A stretch of 64,000 bases of DNA from Nitrospirota bacterium (GTDB lineage Bacteria > Nitrospirota > Leptospirillia > Leptospirillales > Leptospirillaceae), in the NCBI GenBank assembly GCA_021801345.1, contig JAJYYA010000031.1, positions 1 to 64,000 of the forward strand, written 5' to 3'. Positions 48,903 to 57,338 of this stretch are shown piece by piece. Below the pieces are notes generated by a model. It saw only the letters and a program-made list of their open reading frames with translations. It was not told the origin of the DNA and did no database searches. A program made the position numbers and the translations under genes. Position 1 is the first letter of the stretch, and every line of letters starts with the position of its first letter.

Positions 48903-49250
48903 GTGCGCCAGACGCCCCTTTTTACCGCACTTGCCCTGCCCTTACTCTCTCTAGTCTGGGACTACAACTGGGTCGTCATGAAGAGCGCCCTGGCGGACTG
49001 TCCGCCGCTTCACTTTACGGCGATGCGAGTTTTGGGGGGAACTCTTGTCCTCTTTTTGATCCTTTGTGCGATGGGCCGTCCCCTCGTCATGGCGCCAATC
49101 CCCTACGTTCTTCCTCTGGGACTTCTCCAGTCGACCGGATTTGCGGGGTGCACCCTCTGGGGATCGCCCTCGCCGCTGTCTGAAACGGACGAAGACCGGC
49201 TCCGTTCTATCGGGTCTGACTGTGTCTGTCGTCCTTGCCAAATCCCATAA
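48903..49250 (+). pseudogene. Truncated EamA/DMT transporter (N-terminal remnant)
   Basis: The first ~85 residues look like the start of a 10-span EamA drug/metabolite transporter: two to three membrane spans with VWDYNWVVMKSAL, HFTAMRVLGGTLVLFLIL and LPLGLLQSTGFAGCTLWG. After that the sequence becomes hydrophilic and stops at 115 residues instead of about 300. The rest of the transporter is not found downstream, where the hipBA genes begin. The stop codon lies in the left arm of the hip operator palindrome, suggesting the insertion or deletion joint is near 49165-49240. Confidence 0.7.
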
Positions 49251-49262
49251 AAGGGTTAATAT
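49235..49262 (+). promoter_or_regulatory. Promoter of hipBA
   Basis: TTGCCA (49235-49240), 16-base spacer, TAATAT (49257-49262). The -10 element lies at the inner edge of the left arm of the operator palindrome, so a bound repressor would block it. The leader to hipB is about 25 bases. Confidence 0.55.
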
Positions 49263-49286
49263 AGTACTTGTTAACCTTTTTATGGG
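49244..49286. promoter_or_regulatory. 43-bp operator palindrome of hipBA
   Basis: A 16-base left arm (49244-49259, CCCATAAAAGGGTTAA) and a right arm (49271-49286) that is its reverse complement at 15 of 16 positions, separated by 11 bases. It covers the predicted -10 element and reaches the hipB ribosome site. HipB-type HTH dimers typically bind such sites, with HipA as co-repressor. Confidence 0.8.
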
Positions 49287-49293
49287 GTGAAAG

Positions 49294-49626
49294 ATGAAAA
49301 CTCTTGTAACGAAGGAGGGACTTCCTCCCAGCTCGAAAATAACTCTTGAAGAACTGGGTCGGCGGCTCCGTTCCCTCAGAAAGACCTGTGGTTACAGTCG
49401 GGAGAGATTGGCGGCGTTGACCTTTCTCGGGAGGAATACCATTGTCAGGATGGAATCCGGGGATCCCGGGGTGTCGATCGGAGCATGGGCCCAGGTGATT
49501 CACGTATTGGGAAGCGATCGCACCCTGACCTTTCTCCTTGATCTTCCGAAGGAGGACAGAGACGGATTCAAGGGGAGGAAAAATGGAAAATCCCAGGATA
49601 TTGACGCCCTTGCAGAGTCGTTATGA
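49294..49626 (+). CDS. hipB: HipB-like antitoxin (HTH XRE)
   Basis: 110-residue DNA-binding antitoxin. An Xre-type helix-turn-helix lies at about 19-75 (LEELGRRLRSLRKTCGYSRE, GRNTIVRMESGDPGVSIGAW), and a C-terminal stretch with LTFLLDLPKED. It should repress its own operon at the palindrome just upstream and neutralise HipA. Its last four bases overlap the hipA start (ATGA), normal for this pair. Confidence 0.88.
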   Translation: MKTLVTKEGLPPSSKITLEELGRRLRSLRKTCGYSRERLAALTFLGRNTIVRMESGDPGVSIGAWAQVIHVLGSDRTLTFLLDLPKEDRDGFKGRKNGKSQDIDALAESL

Positions 49627-50858
49627 GCGAGATTATTTACGTTTTTCATACGCTTCCCAAAAACGAGACGCCCGTTCTTGCCGGGGTGTTCCAGTACGAT
49701 ACTCCCGGTGGACCAGGAAAATTTCGATATGTCAGAAGCTATCTCGATCGTGAGGATGCCCTTCCCGTATCTCCTGTAGACTTGTCGACGCTCAATTCGG
49801 AAGTCGTTTGGTCCGGAGACCGGAATGAAGGAGTGTTCGGAGTGTTCCGTGACGCGCTTCCTGATTTTTGGGGACGGCTCGTCTATGCCTCGAACAATTC
49901 CCTTCCCTCCACAAGTGTGAGCAATGTCATGCTCATGAGGAGGCCGGATCCTCTCCGGATCGGAGCCCTCGATTTTTCAAGCGAGAACCGGCTTCCCGAA
50001 TCAAAGACGATTACAAATGTTCATGATATGGCCCGTCTCGTTTCGGCCGCCCAAATGATCCTTGATGGGGACGAGGGTGGTCTGAATCTGGAAGAGCGGC
50101 GGCTTCTTTTGATGGGAAGCAGCATGGGAGGCGCGAGGCCGAAGACCACCGTTCTCCATGATGGAAAACTGTTTCTGGCAAAGTTCCCTGCAAAGGGCGA
50201 CCGTTTTGACTATGCACGGGTCGAGAGGGCCATTTCCGACCTGGCCAGGTCGGTCGGGATAGAAACCCCGAACACGCAGCTGATTTCCCTTCCTGACGGA
50301 AGAGGAGTATTCCTTTCGGAGCGGTTCGACCGGGAGCCCGTTCCGGGAAAAGCCGGTTCCTTCTTCCGGAAAGGATTCATAAGCGCCCTGACTCTCCTCG
50401 GCTTCGACGAGAGTGAGAATCTTTTTGGATCCTATCCTGCCATTGCAGATGCGGCCCGCAGGGCCGGAATCGATTGCGGCTTGGAACTATATCGTCGAAT
50501 GGTGTTCAATATCGCTGTTCGAAACTCCGATGATCATCTCAGAAATCACGGATTCATTCGGGAAAAATCCGGATGGAAGATTTCTCCGGCCTATGACCTG
50601 ATGCCGACCCCAGCCGTTCCTGGCATCAGCACCTTCTTCGACCTTTCGATCGGAGTCGGGAAAATGGGGCGAAAGGCGACACGCGAAAATGCCCTTTCGG
50701 AGTCGGCGAGATTCGGTCTGTCGCGAAGCGAGGCGGAGGAGATTTTTACGGTCGTCTCCGAGGGGGTGAGTCATTGGCGGACTTTTTATGCCAACAATGG
50801 GGTCACAGGATCTGACGCCGAGAAATTCTCGGGGAGCTTTTCGAGCCTTCTCCCGTAA
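49623..50858 (+). CDS. hipA: HipA-like serine/threonine kinase toxin
   Basis: Type II toxin kinase; E. coli HipA phosphorylates glutamyl-tRNA synthetase and causes persistence. 411 residues. Seen: SSMGGARPKTTVL (the Gly-rich loop that in HipA carries the self-phosphorylated Ser), LFLAKFPAKGD with the ATP-binding Lys, NSDDHLRNHGF (catalytic Asp loop) and SPAYDLMP (metal-binding Asp). All key residues appear intact. N-terminal Couple_hipA domain about 1-105. The target is not known. It lies between the truncated transporter and the 3' end of tRNA-Leu. Confidence 0.9.
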   Translation: MSEIIYVFHTLPKNETPVLAGVFQYDTPGGPGKFRYVRSYLDREDALPVSPVDLSTLNSEVVWSGDRNEGVFGVFRDALPDFWGRLVYASNNSLPSTSVSNVMLMRRPDPLRIGALDFSSENRLPESKTITNVHDMARLVSAAQMILDGDEGGLNLEERRLLLMGSSMGGARPKTTVLHDGKLFLAKFPAKGDRFDYARVERAISDLARSVGIETPNTQLISLPDGRGVFLSERFDREPVPGKAGSFFRKGFISALTLLGFDESENLFGSYPAIADAARRAGIDCGLELYRRMVFNIAVRNSDDHLRNHGFIREKSGWKISPAYDLMPTPAVPGISTFFDLSIGVGKMGRKATRENALSESARFGLSRSEAEEIFTVVSEGVSHWRTFYANNGVTGSDAEKFSGSFSSLLP

Positions 50859-50949: not shown

Positions 50950-51033
50950 TGGTGCGAGAGGGGGGACTTGAACCCCCACGGGTTGCCCCGCCAGATCCTA
51001 AGTCTGGTGCGTCTGCCGTTTCGCCACTCTCGC
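50950..51033 (-). tRNA. tRNA-Leu (TAG)
   Basis: Read on the - strand: acceptor GCGAGAG pairs with CTCTCGC, then A and an encoded CCA. Anticodon stem CCAGA/TCTGG with loop CTTAGGA gives anticodon TAG (reads CUA and relatives). A long variable arm CGGGGCAACCCG marks a class II tRNA, and the T arm is GGGGG-TTCAAGT-CCCCC. Length 84. Its 3' end faces hipA. Confidence 0.97.
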
Positions 51034-51069: not shown

Positions 51070-51936
51070 TTGACAATCGAGGACGGACAGGGCTTCCAAA
51101 AGGGGCTCCGGATCATTGCTCAGGCCAACATCCTTCTTTCGTGTGTGATGTTGGGATATTTCCGCCCGAGGCTGTCTACTCCCCTTTTTGAGTTTCCCCT
51201 CCTCGCCACTCTCCATCTCTTTGTCCTCGGAGGGATCCTGCCCCTTCTGATGGAGCGCTGGTGCCCATTTTCCCGAACGTTTCGACTGGCCGTCCTTTTT
51301 TCCCTGAGCGGGACCGCCGTTCTCGTTGCGGGGTTTCTCCTGTACCCACGATCGCCTCTCCCGCTGGAGGGGGGCCTCCTCGTCAGCTCCGGCCTTCTCC
51401 TTGTTCTTCTGTCGATTCCCCGGGGAAGCCCGTCCTTTCTTTCTTGGGTCTTCTTTTGGATCGCATCTCTTTTGGGGATCTCTTTGGGAGGCGTCCTGGC
51501 AAGACCTGTGGTCGACCCCATTCCCTTCAGCGCGATCTCGGTTCACGCGATTATGGGAGCGGGAGTTGGTCTCTACGCCCTCTGCTGGATCGGCAGATCT
51601 TTCGGGCGATCCCTGTTTCGGGAGGGCGCACTCCTTCTTGCGACGGCTCTGGGGCTCTTTCTGGTTCTCCGGCACACTCTTGTCGACAGGACGATGGTGG
51701 TCTTTTCCCTGGGGGCACTCGGGATTCTCCTGGCGGAGATCCGGTGGGCGGGACGGATTCTGGCCCTTGTTCTTGCGGGGGGAGTCTCTGCCGCCGGCAT
51801 TGCCGGGCTGCTCCTCCCCGGGACTTGGGTCTCGGATTTGGCTGCGGTTTTTGTGCTGGGCGGGCTTGCGGGCCTTCTGCCAACGGTCAGCCGGCGATCG
51901 CCGAGACGACGGAATGCTGAGGTTCGGAAGCCATAG
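51070..51936 (+). CDS. Multi-span membrane protein of unknown function
   Basis: 288 residues almost wholly hydrophobic, with eight or nine spans (for example LATLHLFVLGGILPLLM, AVLFSLSGTAVLVAGFLL, GALLLATALGLFLVL). A conserved-looking HLFVLGG near residue 49 and SVHAIMGAGVGLYAL near 157 place histidines in spans, a feature of haem- or metal-binding membrane families, but I do not recognise one. TTG start 51070. Its last 50 bases overlap the 3' end of the convergent AAA-like gene. Confidence 0.7.
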   Translation: MTIEDGQGFQKGLRIIAQANILLSCVMLGYFRPRLSTPLFEFPLLATLHLFVLGGILPLLMERWCPFSRTFRLAVLFSLSGTAVLVAGFLLYPRSPLPLEGGLLVSSGLLLVLLSIPRGSPSFLSWVFFWIASLLGISLGGVLARPVVDPIPFSAISVHAIMGAGVGLYALCWIGRSFGRSLFREGALLLATALGLFLVLRHTLVDRTMVVFSLGALGILLAEIRWAGRILALVLAGGVSAAGIAGLLLPGTWVSDLAAVFVLGGLAGLLPTVSRRSPRRRNAEVRKP

Positions 51937-54900
51937 GGGCCCCTTCGGTGAGCTGGATCTGGTTGTCGACGATTCCGATGAGACGCGAACTCTCCGGGGT
52001 CATCCCCGCGGCGGCCTGCTCGAGATCCTTGAGCGCGGGAAGCAGAAGGGATTGAGCCTTCCTCTGGAGCTGGGCAAGGGTGACCAGCGCAGGATCGAGC
52101 TGATAGGCAATGAAGGCCGGGACCTCCGGATCGACATCGAGAAACCCCTGAAGAGGATGGGTGGCAAGGAAGTCGCTGAGCGTCTGGTAGACGGTTCTCC
52201 GGGCGAGGTCGATCAGATCGGCGTCGGTGTATGTGGGAAAGGGGACGATCAGGTCGAGGGTGTTCAAAAGCTCTCGTCCAAAGACCGGAAGATGGGCGAG
52301 CCGGCTGTTTTTTTCCGCAAGCTTGTCCAGGATCATGGCGGCGCGGTTGCCTCCCTTGATCTCCTCCATCTCGTCTCCGGAGAAGAGGGATGTTCCCAGG
52401 ATGAGCGTGCTCCTCGGAACTCCAAGGCGCTTCTTCCCGTTGCTCATGATCCCGTCGGCCACATACTCCTGGAGAAAGTCCCAGGCCGAGGGGTGGGCCT
52501 GCTCGATATTGTCGAGGTAGAGGACGGAGTCGGGGCGATCTTCGAGAACCGACAGAAGCCCGACCGGGACGGGGCTCGACGCCGTCGATCCCAGCGGACG
52601 CTGGAGCAGCATGCTGGCAAAGAGGCGGTCGGAGAAGAGCCCCATGTCCCGGACAACGAGGGAGGGCTTTTCCGGCGAGAGATACTTGGCCACGGCCTTG
52701 GCGGCCTCGAGCTTTCCCGTTCCGCGGGGGCCGGAAAACAGGAAGGCCCCGAGTAGTCCCGAGCCGCCTTTTTTGATTCCGTACCGGCCGGCTTCGAGGA
52801 TGGAGCGGACCTCGATCTGGGTCTCCGGGCGTCCCGGATAGCCCGGAAGTGCCTCTGCGGGGGGCTGTGCCATGAGAAAGTGCAGCCCCGATTCCATCTC
52901 TTCTGTCCCCCCCTCGACGGCTTCCGCCGCAGGCTCTTCGGTATGGTCGAACTCCGCAAAGTTGATCTTGTCTGGTTCGACGCCTTCGAGAACCTTCCCC
53001 AGAGCAAACTCCTCGAGTTCGGAAAAGAGCGATCGGCCGAGTTCGGCAAGGTCGAGCAGGGAGGAGAATCTCCGGGCAATGAAGGGGTCGATCTTATTGA
53101 CATCGTCGGCTCCCCCGATGAGCCAGACGTTTTTGTCCTCGTTGGCCTGGGAGAGCTCCATGACCTTTTGGTTATAAAGCTCCCCGTGGTAGCCGTAGTT
53201 GGAGAGCTGAACCTTGGGAAAGAGTTCTTCGACGGGATCGACGAAGACGGTCGAGGGACGGTGTTTCCGGCTCCTGAGCAAAAGGTTCCGGAACTCCGTT
53301 CCATCGAGACGCTTCTCGTCGGGTGTCGTCATGAAGGTGTAGCCGACGATCGTGGAGAGTCTCTCGGCAATCTGCCGCCGGATTGTGCGGTTTCGGCCGA
53401 TGATCAGGATCGATTCATGAGACTTCTTCTGACGTCCGGAAAAGAGTTCGCTCGTCCGACGAATCAAGAACGGCGCCATCGTGTCGTCGTTGAGGCGTGC
53501 TCGAACCCGTTCCATGGGCCCTGCCGTCGGGTCCTTCCAGTTCTGGGCCTTTCTCCGGATCGAGACGTCGATATCGAGCTGACGCAAGGCGCGACGGAGC
53601 TTTCGTGCATAGTCGACGGCGTGGATGACGACCTCCCGTATGTCCTCTGCGGCAAATCCTTGCATCAGGGCAGAAAGCTTGCCCAGGTCGAAGCCCTGGA
53701 TCATCTCTGCGGTCAGAAGAGGGACGCTTCCCGGAAGGAGCTCGTTCTTCTTGGCCTCTTCGAGGAGGAATCTCCCGAGAAGGGTCTTCCTCATCTCGAT
53801 GTCCGGCATGGGAATCGGGATCGTCCAGTGAATGATGGGAGGGGTGACGAAGGTCTTGGGCAACTCGTCGGGATGGTCGGCCGAGGTGATGAGAAGATGG
53901 GTCCTGTTCTTTGCCAGTCTTAAAAGAAAGCTCTGGAGGTTGTGGAGACCCTGGGGATTTCCCTGGGCGGCTTTGATGAGATCCCCGTAGTTTTCGATGT
54001 AGATCACGAGGGGGTTAAAGGGTTTTATCTTGAAGAGAAAGCCCTTCCAGTGGTTTTCAAAGCCCTGAGCGTCAAGGGTGAGGAGCGAGTCGAGGATGAG
54101 GTTAAAGAGGGGACGCTTGTACTCTCCGGCCAGGGCGCGGACGAAGATGGTGCGTCCGATCCCGGACGATCCCGTCAGGAGAATCCCGTTAGGAACGGCG
54201 CCGACCGCCTTCTGGGCATTGGTTACCTGATAGAGGATCTGGGCCATTTCGCTCTTGACCTCGGGGTTCCCGGCAAGCTGGGCGAAGTCCTCGGCGGGGA
54301 CAAGAAGCTTGGTCTTCGTGGCGGCATGTTCGTCGTCGGAGATTCCCATGCGGAAAAGGGCGACCAGGGAGAGAATGGTGGCCCCCAGAAGCCAGCCGGC
54401 CCCCGTGCCCATGCTAATGAGTGAGACGATCCCTGATGTGCTGGCGATGGTTGCTCCGGCGACGAGGAAGAATCCTCCGTAAACAATGGCGGAGCTCCAG
54501 AAGTAGATCGCCTTGGGGGCCATGCGGACCGGGTTCGGCTTGAAGATGATCTCCCCTTCGGCATTTTCCGAATGAACCTGTGAGGGAATGAGAAGAAAGC
54601 ACAGGGAGGCCAGAAGGGTCACTCCTCCGAGGATCCAGAGGGCCATGGCAAGTGAGCCGGGCTGGGAGCGGAAGGCCGTTCCTCCGATCATCGCGCAGAG
54701 AGCGATGAAGCTCCATGTGACCACGAAGGAGAAGGAAGGGGGAGGGATCCCCTGGCCCCCCTTGCTCTTCTTTTTTTTCGACAGATAGGGGCGTCCGAGA
54801 TTTCTCCCGATCCCGGCTAAAACGACGGCATGAAGAAGCAGGACCAGGAGGATGACGAGGCTTGCCATCAGGGGCATCTGGTTGTAGAGCGGGTCGATCT

Positions 54901-54970
54901 CGTGTCGGAAGAAGAGCGCGGCGGAGACCCAGCTAAGCCCCACGAACATGATAATGATGGGCTGAATCAT
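51887..54970 (-). CDS. Membrane-anchored protein with three degenerate AAA+ modules
   Basis: 1027 residues. About six membrane spans between 2 and 207, then three ATPase-like modules. Module 1 (about 218-460): GSSGIGRT at 267-274 in place of Walker A (R for K), IEN at 325-327 in place of DE, sensor-like ITSADHPDEL. Module 2 (about 519-650): IGRNRTIRR where a P-loop should be, FVDPVEE, sensor/arginine-like GGADDVNKIDPFIARRF. Module 3 (about 735-960), ClpB-like: GPRGTGKL at 747-754 (Lys kept, S/T lost), YLDNIEQAHP at 818-827 (N for the catalytic E). ATP hydrolysis therefore looks impaired throughout; binding may remain. ATG 54970 overlaps the uvrC stop by four bases. No family name is known to me. 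Confidence 0.85.
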   Translation of the reverse strand: MIQPIIIMFVGLSWVSAALFFRHEIDPLYNQMPLMASLVILLVLLLHAVVLAGIGRNLGRPYLSKKKKSKGGQGIPPPSFSFVVTWSFIALCAMIGGTAFRSQPGSLAMALWILGGVTLLASLCFLLIPSQVHSENAEGEIIFKPNPVRMAPKAIYFWSSAIVYGGFFLVAGATIASTSGIVSLISMGTGAGWLLGATILSLVALFRMGISDDEHAATKTKLLVPAEDFAQLAGNPEVKSEMAQILYQVTNAQKAVGAVPNGILLTGSSGIGRTIFVRALAGEYKRPLFNLILDSLLTLDAQGFENHWKGFLFKIKPFNPLVIYIENYGDLIKAAQGNPQGLHNLQSFLLRLAKNRTHLLITSADHPDELPKTFVTPPIIHWTIPIPMPDIEMRKTLLGRFLLEEAKKNELLPGSVPLLTAEMIQGFDLGKLSALMQGFAAEDIREVVIHAVDYARKLRRALRQLDIDVSIRRKAQNWKDPTAGPMERVRARLNDDTMAPFLIRRTSELFSGRQKKSHESILIIGRNRTIRRQIAERLSTIVGYTFMTTPDEKRLDGTEFRNLLLRSRKHRPSTVFVDPVEELFPKVQLSNYGYHGELYNQKVMELSQANEDKNVWLIGGADDVNKIDPFIARRFSSLLDLAELGRSLFSELEEFALGKVLEGVEPDKINFAEFDHTEEPAAEAVEGGTEEMESGLHFLMAQPPAEALPGYPGRPETQIEVRSILEAGRYGIKKGGSGLLGAFLFSGPRGTGKLEAAKAVAKYLSPEKPSLVVRDMGLFSDRLFASMLLQRPLGSTASSPVPVGLLSVLEDRPDSVLYLDNIEQAHPSAWDFLQEYVADGIMSNGKKRLGVPRSTLILGTSLFSGDEMEEIKGGNRAAMILDKLAEKNSRLAHLPVFGRELLNTLDLIVPFPTYTDADLIDLARRTVYQTLSDFLATHPLQGFLDVDPEVPAFIAYQLDPALVTLAQLQRKAQSLLLPALKDLEQAAAGMTPESSRLIGIVDNQIQLTEGAPMASEPQHSVVSAIAG

Positions 54971-56841
54971 GGCGTTTCCCCGGGAAGAAGGGGAAGGCCG
55001 GGAGGCTCCTGGCCCCCCAAGTGTTCTGCGATCCGGGCGGCAAGGGCGACGGAAATGGCCCCTTTCTTGGCGATCGTGTCGGCATCGGCTCCCCGGAGGG
55101 CCTCCACCGAACCGAAGGCCACGAGAAGCTGCTTTTCGCGGGAGGGGCCGATCCCCGGGATGTCGAGAAGTCTCGACCGGGTCAAGGCCTCCTCCCGGAG
55201 CTTCCGGTGGTAGGTGATGGCGAAACGGTGAGCCTCGTCGCGGACCCTCATCAAAAGAAGTGTCGCCGGGCGATGGGGGGGAAGGATCAGGGGGGCGTCG
55301 AACTCCGGGGCGACGAGCCGTTCGAGGTGGCCCGTCCGGCTTCGCTCCTTGGCGATTCCCATCACCTGTCGGGGAACGGGTGTTCGACCGATCTGGTGGA
55401 GTGCGGAAAGGGCGGCCCGGAGCTGGGGAAGTCCCCCGTCGATCAGGAGAAGGTCGGGAAGGGGACGGTCGTCGAAGTGGCGGGAAAGCACCTCGGCAAG
55501 CATTCTGAAGTCGTCCTGTCCCCGGTCGTAACGGATCCTGAACCTCCGGTAGAGGGATTTGTCGGGAAGGCCGTCCGTAAAGACGACGAGCGAGGCGACG
55601 GGAAAGGAGTCTCCCGTATTCGAGATGTCGACGCATCCAATCGTCGCGGGGATTCTGGAAAGACCAAGCATCTCCCGGACCTCTTCCAGGGCTCGGAAGA
55701 GGTCCTCCCTGCTCTTTCCCCGTTCTCTCAGTGCCTCTCTGGCATTGTTTTGTGCGAGCTCTACCACGGTCTTCCTCTCTCCTCGCCTGGGGGAATTCAC
55801 GACGACCTTTGCACCTTTCTTTTCGGCCATCCATCCGAGGTTCTTGAGCCCCTCCTCTGAAAGGGGGTGGGAGAGAAGGATCTCGTCCGGCAGGGCGGTG
55901 GTCTCCTGGGAGTAGTGCTGCTCGAGAAAGGCGAGAAGGATCTCTTCCGGATTGTCGAGGTCGTGGTTCTTTATATGGACCTCCCGGCGGCCGGCGATTC
56001 GGCCGTTTCTGACGGAAAGAAGCTGGATCTGGGCGGCCCCGTCAAGCGTCTCGAGGGCAATTGCATCGAGGGGATGCATGACGGTGAACTCGACCGTCTG
56101 GCGCTCGAGGACGGTCCGGACGCTCTCGAGCCGGTGCTTTGCCCGGGCAGCCTTTTCGAAGTCGAGATTCTTGGCGTGTCGGACCATCTCGTTGTGGAGA
56201 AGGGCTTCAAGATCCGTGTTCTTGCCCTCGAGAAAGAGGCGGACCCCATCGGCCATCGTCCGGTAGTCCTCTCGGGAGACCAGGCCGGCACAGGGTCCAA
56301 GGCATCGGCCGATCTGGTATTCGATACAGGGTCTGTCGATCGTCTTTCCCAGGTCGAGAGAGCATGTGGCGAGGGGGAAGTTGCGGGAGATCATGCCAAG
56401 AGTCTCCCGGAGGGCGCCCGGGTTGGCGTAGGGTCCGAACGTGAGGTCCTGTCCCCGCGTGACCCTTCGGGTGACCGAAAGGCGAGGAAAGTCTTCGGAG
56501 TAGGAGAAGCGGAGGTAGGGGTAGGTCTTGTCGTCCCGAAAGAGAACGTTGAATCGAGGCCGGTATTTCTTGATCAGGGTGTTTTCGAGGATGAGCGCGT
56601 CGAGCTCGCTCCGGGTTACCATGGTCTCGATATTGGTGACTTTCTCGGTCATCTTGCGAATGCGGGGGGATGTGGGGCGGGTCTTCTGGAAGTAGGAGCG
56701 GACCCGGTCCTTCAGGCACTTGGACTTTCCCACATAAAGGACCTCTCCGGCGTCGTCCTTCATGAGGTAAACCCCGGGAGAGTCGGGAAGGAGCCGGAGC
56801 TTCTCCTCGAGAAGAAAGGGCGTCTGGTCGTCCTTGTCCAT
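54967..56841 (-). CDS. uvrC: Excinuclease ABC subunit C
   Basis: Makes both incisions in nucleotide excision repair with UvrAB. Seen: GIY-YIG nuclease (about 12-95; PGVYLMKDDAG, VLYVGKSKCLKDRV), the UVR region around residue 210 that binds UvrB, the RNase H-like C-nuclease with GCVDISNTGDSFPVAS, and a closing helix-hairpin-helix pair (LDIPGIGPSREKQLL, FGSVEALRGA); 624 residues. The start ATG 56841 is followed downstream in the transcript by the membrane AAA-like gene with a 4-base overlap. The promoter for this strand was not identified. Confidence 0.95.
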   Translation of the reverse strand: MDKDDQTPFLLEEKLRLLPDSPGVYLMKDDAGEVLYVGKSKCLKDRVRSYFQKTRPTSPRIRKMTEKVTNIETMVTRSELDALILENTLIKKYRPRFNVLFRDDKTYPYLRFSYSEDFPRLSVTRRVTRGQDLTFGPYANPGALRETLGMISRNFPLATCSLDLGKTIDRPCIEYQIGRCLGPCAGLVSREDYRTMADGVRLFLEGKNTDLEALLHNEMVRHAKNLDFEKAARAKHRLESVRTVLERQTVEFTVMHPLDAIALETLDGAAQIQLLSVRNGRIAGRREVHIKNHDLDNPEEILLAFLEQHYSQETTALPDEILLSHPLSEEGLKNLGWMAEKKGAKVVVNSPRRGERKTVVELAQNNAREALRERGKSREDLFRALEEVREMLGLSRIPATIGCVDISNTGDSFPVASLVVFTDGLPDKSLYRRFRIRYDRGQDDFRMLAEVLSRHFDDRPLPDLLLIDGGLPQLRAALSALHQIGRTPVPRQVMGIAKERSRTGHLERLVAPEFDAPLILPPHRPATLLLMRVRDEAHRFAITYHRKLREEALTRSRLLDIPGIGPSREKQLLVAFGSVEALRGADADTIAKKGAISVALAARIAEHLGGQEPPGLPLLPGETP

Positions 56842-56892: not shown

Positions 56893-57059
56893 CATTACAA
56901 GGATAGAAAAAGACGGAGGCGGGACCGGCCCGTATTCCTTCCGGGCTTTTGTGCCGGCCCCGGATCTGGCCCCGGCCGATGGTCCCTCAGGACCCCCGCC
57001 GAGCCCATCCGGCATCGTCTTATTGTACCACGTCGCCCCTTCGGGGTAAGGAGGGCCCA

Positions 57060-57338
57060 ATGGTCCAGGATCAGGAGAAACGACCTCCGACAGTGCCCGA
57101 AGCGCCTCTCGAAAACACGTCCGAAAGCGGCGAACCCTCCCCCCTCCTTTCGGAGCCCATGACCGGGAGGGAATGGTGGGGTCTCGCCCGCTATTTTTTG
57201 GGGGGATTGGCCGTGGCCCTCTTTTTTTTCTTTATGATGGCCAACGGTCCGAAAGGGGTCCTTGTGGGAGGGGTTTCGCTTCTGGCAGGTCTTCTGGTCT
57301 GGGTGGTCTACCGATTTGTCTTCCGCGAGGTGGACTAG
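57060..57338 (+). CDS. Small two-span membrane protein
   Basis: 92 residues: a Pro/Glu-rich cytoplasmic N-terminus of about 40, the segment MTGREWWGLARYF, and two membrane spans (about 48-66 and 70-86) joined by ANGPKGV. No family recognised. ATG 57060 has AAGGAGG five bases upstream and a good promoter further up. It is convergent with ftsY, 39 bases apart. Confidence 0.65.
   Translation: MVQDQEKRPPTVPEAPLENTSESGEPSPLLSEPMTGREWWGLARYFLGGLAVALFFFFMMANGPKGVLVGGVSLLAGLLVWVVYRFVFREVD

Follow-up and report, generated by a model that had tools for sequence, protein, structure and literature searches.

What can be deduced about the protein encoded directly behind uvrC in the window analysed here, a 64,000-nucleotide stretch of a Leptospirillaceae contig (JAJYYA010000031.1)? 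Judged by its sequence, it is a pseudo-AAA+ protein under strong purifying selection and not the product of a decaying gene: six predicted N-terminal membrane spans are followed by three AAA+ modules (m1, m2 and m3), none of which would be able to hydrolyse ATP by the usual mechanism or to thread a substrate. We put at roughly 45% the probability that it acts as a catalytically dead, membrane-anchored triple AAA+ scaffold or adaptor, in which m2 binds to a partner in the way that LAP1 binds to Torsin. The gene is a single open frame on the minus strand, from an ATG at 54970 to a stop at 51887, with the following layout:

51887-54970, minus strand: whole gene (P0001) of the membrane pseudo-AAA+ protein, 1027 residues, ATG start, stop included
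54344-54967, minus strand: six-span membrane domain, residues 2-209, from hydropathy and AlphaFold helices; no known family
53570-54298, minus strand: m1, residues 225-467, classic AAA core with helical lid, closest to p97/Cdc48 D2
52985-53473, minus strand: m2, residues 500-662, classic AAA core with a lone helix replacing the lid; Walker A lost
51941-52858, minus strand: m3, residues 705-1010, ClpB-D2-like AAA+ core with C-terminal helices

The AAA+ fold is supported by both sequence and predicted structure. The Pfam scan of the entire protein matched AAA to three stretches (E 3e-16) and AAA_2 to residues 741-889 (E 4e-11), all above cut-off, with no match to an M41 protease domain and none to the FtsK/SpoIIIE family. 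Searched against PDB sequences, the family profiles of m1 (222-467) and m3 (705-1010) found p97 D2 (E 5e-25) and ClpB D2 (E 3e-25), respectively, and that of m2 (468-672), the weakest module by sequence, a VCP-like ATPase/p97 (E 6e-12); in all 15 members m2 reaches Pfam AAA at E<=0.1. Folded alone, m2 gave a model with a predicted local distance difference test score (pLDDT) of 84 and a predicted template modelling score (pTM) of 0.77, which Foldseek matched to FtsH, p97 D1, Vps4 and the Ycf2-FtsHi complex (8xku) at E about 1e-6, and which superimposes on several p97 chains with a root-mean-square deviation of about 3 Å over 137 residues. The full-length AlphaFold model (mean pLDDT 76.5, pTM 0.36) shows six long helices at its N-terminal end and then three alpha/beta modules, of which m1 and m3 carry helical lids; in the PDB it comes closest to double-ring Clp proteins, at low template modelling scores (0.21-0.25 by query length). 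On the C-terminal side of m2 both models place a single helix, followed in the full-length model by a low-confidence acidic linker (676-694), so that m2 appears to be without a normal lid. The three-module AAA+ architecture with its membrane domain can be taken as real, a chance explanation of these matches being far excluded, and the two classic AAA-like modules and third ClpB-like module that an earlier note had read from the letters alone are thereby borne out. The kinship of m3 is to the D2-like part of ClpB alone, as the curated whole-protein ClpB profile gives 55 bits where the cut-off is 1232.

In the membrane domain, AlphaFold predicts helices at residues 2-31, 33-59, 80-99, 105-126, 154-175 and 180-209, and hydropathy gives six spans, the number originally proposed, in three diverged orthologues, namely the window protein and two others 34-37% identical to it. 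The predicted topology is N-in and has a Lys-rich loop (64-71) facing the cytoplasm. The domain is conserved among the orthologues, with invariant residues of its own, and no relative of it was found in Pfam or the PDB.

How much of the AAA+ machinery remains was assessed by a motif tally over 20-21 orthologues (21 for m1, 20 each for m2 and m3). The positions concerned, taken from the orthologue alignment unless stated otherwise, are:

54149-54172, minus strand: degenerate Walker A of m1, GSSGIGRT, residues 267-274
53990-53998, minus strand: degenerate end of Walker B of m1, I-E-N, residues 325-327
53375-53398, minus strand: former Walker A of m2, GRNRTIRR, residues 525-532
53147-53236, minus strand: the 30 residues of m2 that are best conserved in the whole protein, 579-608, 20 of 30 columns invariant
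53069-53074, minus strand: retained arginine-finger positions of m2, R633 and R634, from sequence alignment
52709-52732, minus strand: Walker A of m3, GPRGTGKL, residues 747-754
52508-52513, minus strand: Walker B of m3, D820-N821, an invariant DN

The catalytic Walker B Glu is absent from every module of every orthologue examined. It is replaced by Asn (13) or Asp (8) in m1, it is missing from m2, where an invariant VDP/IDP puts DP in 20/20, and it has become Asn in m3, with DN for DE in all 20. The Walker A Lys is lost from m1 (0/21; Arg in 18, otherwise Gln, His or Cys) and from m2 (0/20; Arg throughout), and is kept by m3 in 19 of the 20, as is the first Walker B Asp in all of them; the Walker A Thr/Ser of m3 is lost. 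The pair of Walker A Lys and Walker B Glu, expected in at least one module of an active AAA+ ATPase, thus occurs in none. No module retains the sensor-1 Asn (Leu in 20/20 for m3) or the pore-loop aromatics: the position of the FtsH pore Phe is occupied by Asp, Glu, Ser or Asn in m1 and m2, which does not fit a threading unfoldase, and both tyrosines of the ClpB loop GYVGYEEGG are gone from m3, with Ser, Thr, Ala, Glu or Asp and Val or Leu in their place. The loss of Glu, sensor 1 and pore aromatics argues against hydrolysis by the usual mechanism and against threading for every module; m3, with its Walker A Lys and first Walker B Asp, may still bind nucleotide. Arginine fingers are lost in all orthologues from m1 (both positions) and m3, which by alignment leaves m2 as the sole module keeping trans-acting arginines, with Arg at 633 in 20/20 and Arg or Lys at 634 in 20/20.

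The motifs quoted in the earlier note (GSSGIGRT, GRNRTIRR, GPRGTGKL, IEN, VDP and LDN) are all present, there is good support for its reading of a pseudo-ATPase in the membrane with three AAA+ modules, and a search for orthologues with canonical Walker residues, which would have spoken against it, found none among 20, the replacements being common to all. Its statement that every ATPase motif is degenerate is right for the Walker B Glu and needs qualifying for m3, which keeps its Walker A Lys and first Walker B Asp; its statement that sensor and arginine-like segments are kept applies to the arginines of m2 only.

Orthologues are found in single copy in 21/21 family genomes, covering five genera, and are 35-94% identical; the gene is split over contig ends in two of these genomes, and internal stops occur in none. 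Across eight orthologue pairs the ratio of nonsynonymous to synonymous substitution rates (dN/dS) is about 0.06-0.10, and most pairs have their lowest dN in m2. Such values, together with a loss of motor residues that all orthologues have in common, indicate a selected pseudo-AAA+ protein. In m2, 36 columns out of 163 are invariant. Counted across full-length orthologues, the best-conserved stretch of the whole protein, residues 579-608 (PxExLFPxVQLSxxxYHGExYNQKVxELxQ), lies on its Walker-B/pore-loop-2 side, and this stretch, along with the low dN, suggests that a contact surface is conserved on m2.

We therefore propose, with the degree of belief given at the outset, that the protein would oligomerise into a scaffold at the inner membrane. 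In m3, where Lys and Asp are kept and Glu has become Asn, nucleotide could be bound without hydrolysis and hold the assembly together, and m2, in which ATP site and lid are gone while the arginine-finger arginines and the most conserved surface are kept, would dock on a membrane partner, with an active AAA+ protein or the substrate complex of one as the likeliest candidate. It might recruit or activate this partner much as LAP1 and LULL1 do for Torsin. LAP1 is membrane-bound, has neither Walker motifs nor the C-terminal domain, and provides Torsin with an arginine finger (PMC4358337). The pattern of m2 is similar, with no Walker motifs, no lid, a retained arginine finger and a membrane anchor, a likeness that does not amount to homology; LAP1 and LULL1 are, however, eukaryotic and lumenal, with one module, and no Torsin-like partner was found here. 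Several points weigh against this proposal. The low overall pTM and the low template modelling scores of the full-length model leave the relative arrangement of the modules unpredicted; the role of R633 is assigned by sequence alignment and not from a solved complex; and among the same-genome ATPases inspected (FtsH, two ARC-like, ClpC, and ClpB/ClpV types) none is without its own arginine-finger segment, so that none is an obvious Torsin-like client and no partner can be named. That the protein forms mixed rings with an active inner-membrane AAA+ enzyme in leptospirilli, activated through the m2 arginine finger, appears unlikely to us. The role of scaffold, adaptor or regulator suggested earlier thus fits the data by inference, and the suggestion that the gene founds an undescribed system found no support, as no partner gene emerged.

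The AAA proteins of the same genome include two ARC/Mpa-like ATPases, a further one that contains a DUF5925 stretch, and a ClpV-/ClpB-like ATPase of 923 residues (L002, L003, L105, L114).

Among the alternatives, the one that survives best, although we rate it as somewhat improbable, is that the protein serves as a passive platform on which a membrane complex specific to the family is assembled or anchored. The AAA+ folds would then be protein-binding modules, with no AAA+ enzyme being regulated; the complex itself might, in iron oxidisers, be a respiratory or an envelope one, for example. The loss of all motor features, the conservation of fold, surfaces and membrane domain and the confinement of the gene to one family within its phylum all agree with such a platform, but the retention of the arginine-finger arginines in m2 alone, with other trans-acting residues gone, would then need another explanation, and no genes for such a complex are conserved in the neighbourhood. 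More doubtful is a weakly active or switch-like ATPase, in which m3 slowly hydrolyses or exchanges ATP to move the membrane domain and m1 and m2 are structural. The Walker A Gly and Lys and the first Walker B Asp of m3 are indeed kept under selection, and there are membrane ATPases of several modules in which a single one does the work, such as EccC/EssC (PMC11154593); m3, however, lacks the catalytic Glu, the Walker A Thr/Ser, the sensor-1 Asn, the arginine finger and both pore tyrosines.

Very improbable is a functional tie to UvrC in DNA repair at the membrane, which the position of the gene brings to mind:

54967-56841, minus strand: uvrC, directly upstream with a 4-base overlap (ATGA), separate from the AAA+ protein

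The ATGA overlap that was first noted is present, and in 21/21 family genomes from all five genera the AAA+ gene lies directly behind uvrC, mostly overlapping it (ATGA, TGATG or a 2-base gap). This strict adjacency suggests that the two are likely co-expressed, and the claimed coupling holds to that extent; a shared function is not thereby demonstrated, and adjacency alone may be inherited gene order. In nine uvrC loci of other families different genes follow uvrC, so UvrC does not need the AAA+ protein, which shows no DNA-binding domain either. Finally, a decaying gene or assembly artefact, such as a former FtsH/Clp fusion losing its function, has the degenerate motifs in its favour and is refuted by the open single-copy frame in all family genomes, the low dN/dS and the invariant columns of m2.

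How does the protein compare with known systems? With p97/Cdc48 and FtsH it shares the classic AAA core, to which m1 and m2 are homologous by profile and m2 also by predicted fold, and with FtsH an N-terminal membrane anchor; unlike in those proteins, both Walker motifs, sensor 1 and the pore loops are lost and a third, Clp-type module follows, and in place of the two spans and M41 protease of FtsH there are six spans and no M41. From ClpB and ClpC D2, m3 keeps the GxxxxGK and hhhD-x-xE-x-AHP frame but has lost the DE (now DN), the GYVGYEEGG loop, sensor 1 and the arginine finger, and in contrast to ClpB/Hsp100 neither a Clp N domain nor a D1 partner is present. The bacterial type VII secretion protein EccC/EssC is likewise a membrane protein with a row of three or four ATPase modules, of which several are degenerate (PMC11154593), but its modules are of the FtsK/SpoIIIE type, with an active D1, and it has two spans and belongs to a secretion locus, of which nothing is seen around the AAA+ gene. 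The Ycf2-FtsHi chloroplast motor, in which FtsHi has lost its protease site and is mixed with other subunits (PMC8197885), offers a further likeness, as a hetero-complex of membrane AAA proteins with lost activities that m2 matches by fold (8xku), whereas here AAA and Clp-type modules form one chain. No described protein with this combination was found in the open-access literature; its ingredients, pseudo-AAA+ domains, membrane AAA proteins and tandem modules, are each already known. Regulation of active AAA+ modules by dead ones has been described chiefly in eukaryotes, as in LAP1/Torsin. A strictly conserved chain of three pseudo-modules, drawn from the classic AAA and Clp branches and joined to a six-span domain of no known family, would make the function of pseudo-AAA+ rings testable in bacteria.

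The gene appears to be confined, within the phylum, to one family, that of Leptospirillum and its relatives. The m2 profile, run over 396 phylum genomes, matched this family only, except for a match at 3e-7 in one genome (G031) that is of a strength which ordinary AAA proteins also reach and is not a credible orthologue; the membrane-domain profile, run over 296, did so except for a match at 1e-4 with an internal stop (G217). No orthologue outside the family was thus found in about 375 other phylum genomes. Viral contigs gave no confirmed match, plasmids gave partial FtsH/Clp-like matches only (at most 46% covered), and the genome-contig scan, with exact-peptide patterns unable to reach distant relatives, returned the same genus and Clp-like partial matches only, the named relatives being Nitrospirae metagenome bins. 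The members of the family are iron-oxidising, Leptospirillum-like acidophiles, and the gene is universal in the sampled genomes of this industrially important group.

The neighbourhood gives no functional clue. The upstream order phoH-ybeY-ftsY-uvrC is conserved in the genera examined, and the downstream genes vary by genus, with thiC, a gene for a MetH-activation-domain protein and metH in other genera. Between uvrC and ftsY lies a small divergent open reading frame for a two-span protein (56949-57338, plus strand), conserved in position in the genera examined and without a Pfam match, which is a possible membrane partner. The end of the AAA+ gene is overlapped by a convergent gene (51070-51936, plus strand) for a membrane protein of 288 residues, also without a Pfam match and found in the window's genus only. 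Further along, the region 48903-50858 (plus strand) contains a HipB/HipA-like pair, with a helix-turn-helix domain at 49294-49626 and HipA_C at 49623-50858; the pair adjoins a 115-residue EamA fragment (48903-49250) and is followed by a tRNA-Leu (50950-51033). At the corresponding place a relative (G003, L068:4319-5596) has a gene of 425 residues without the hip pair, which is therefore probably an insertion.

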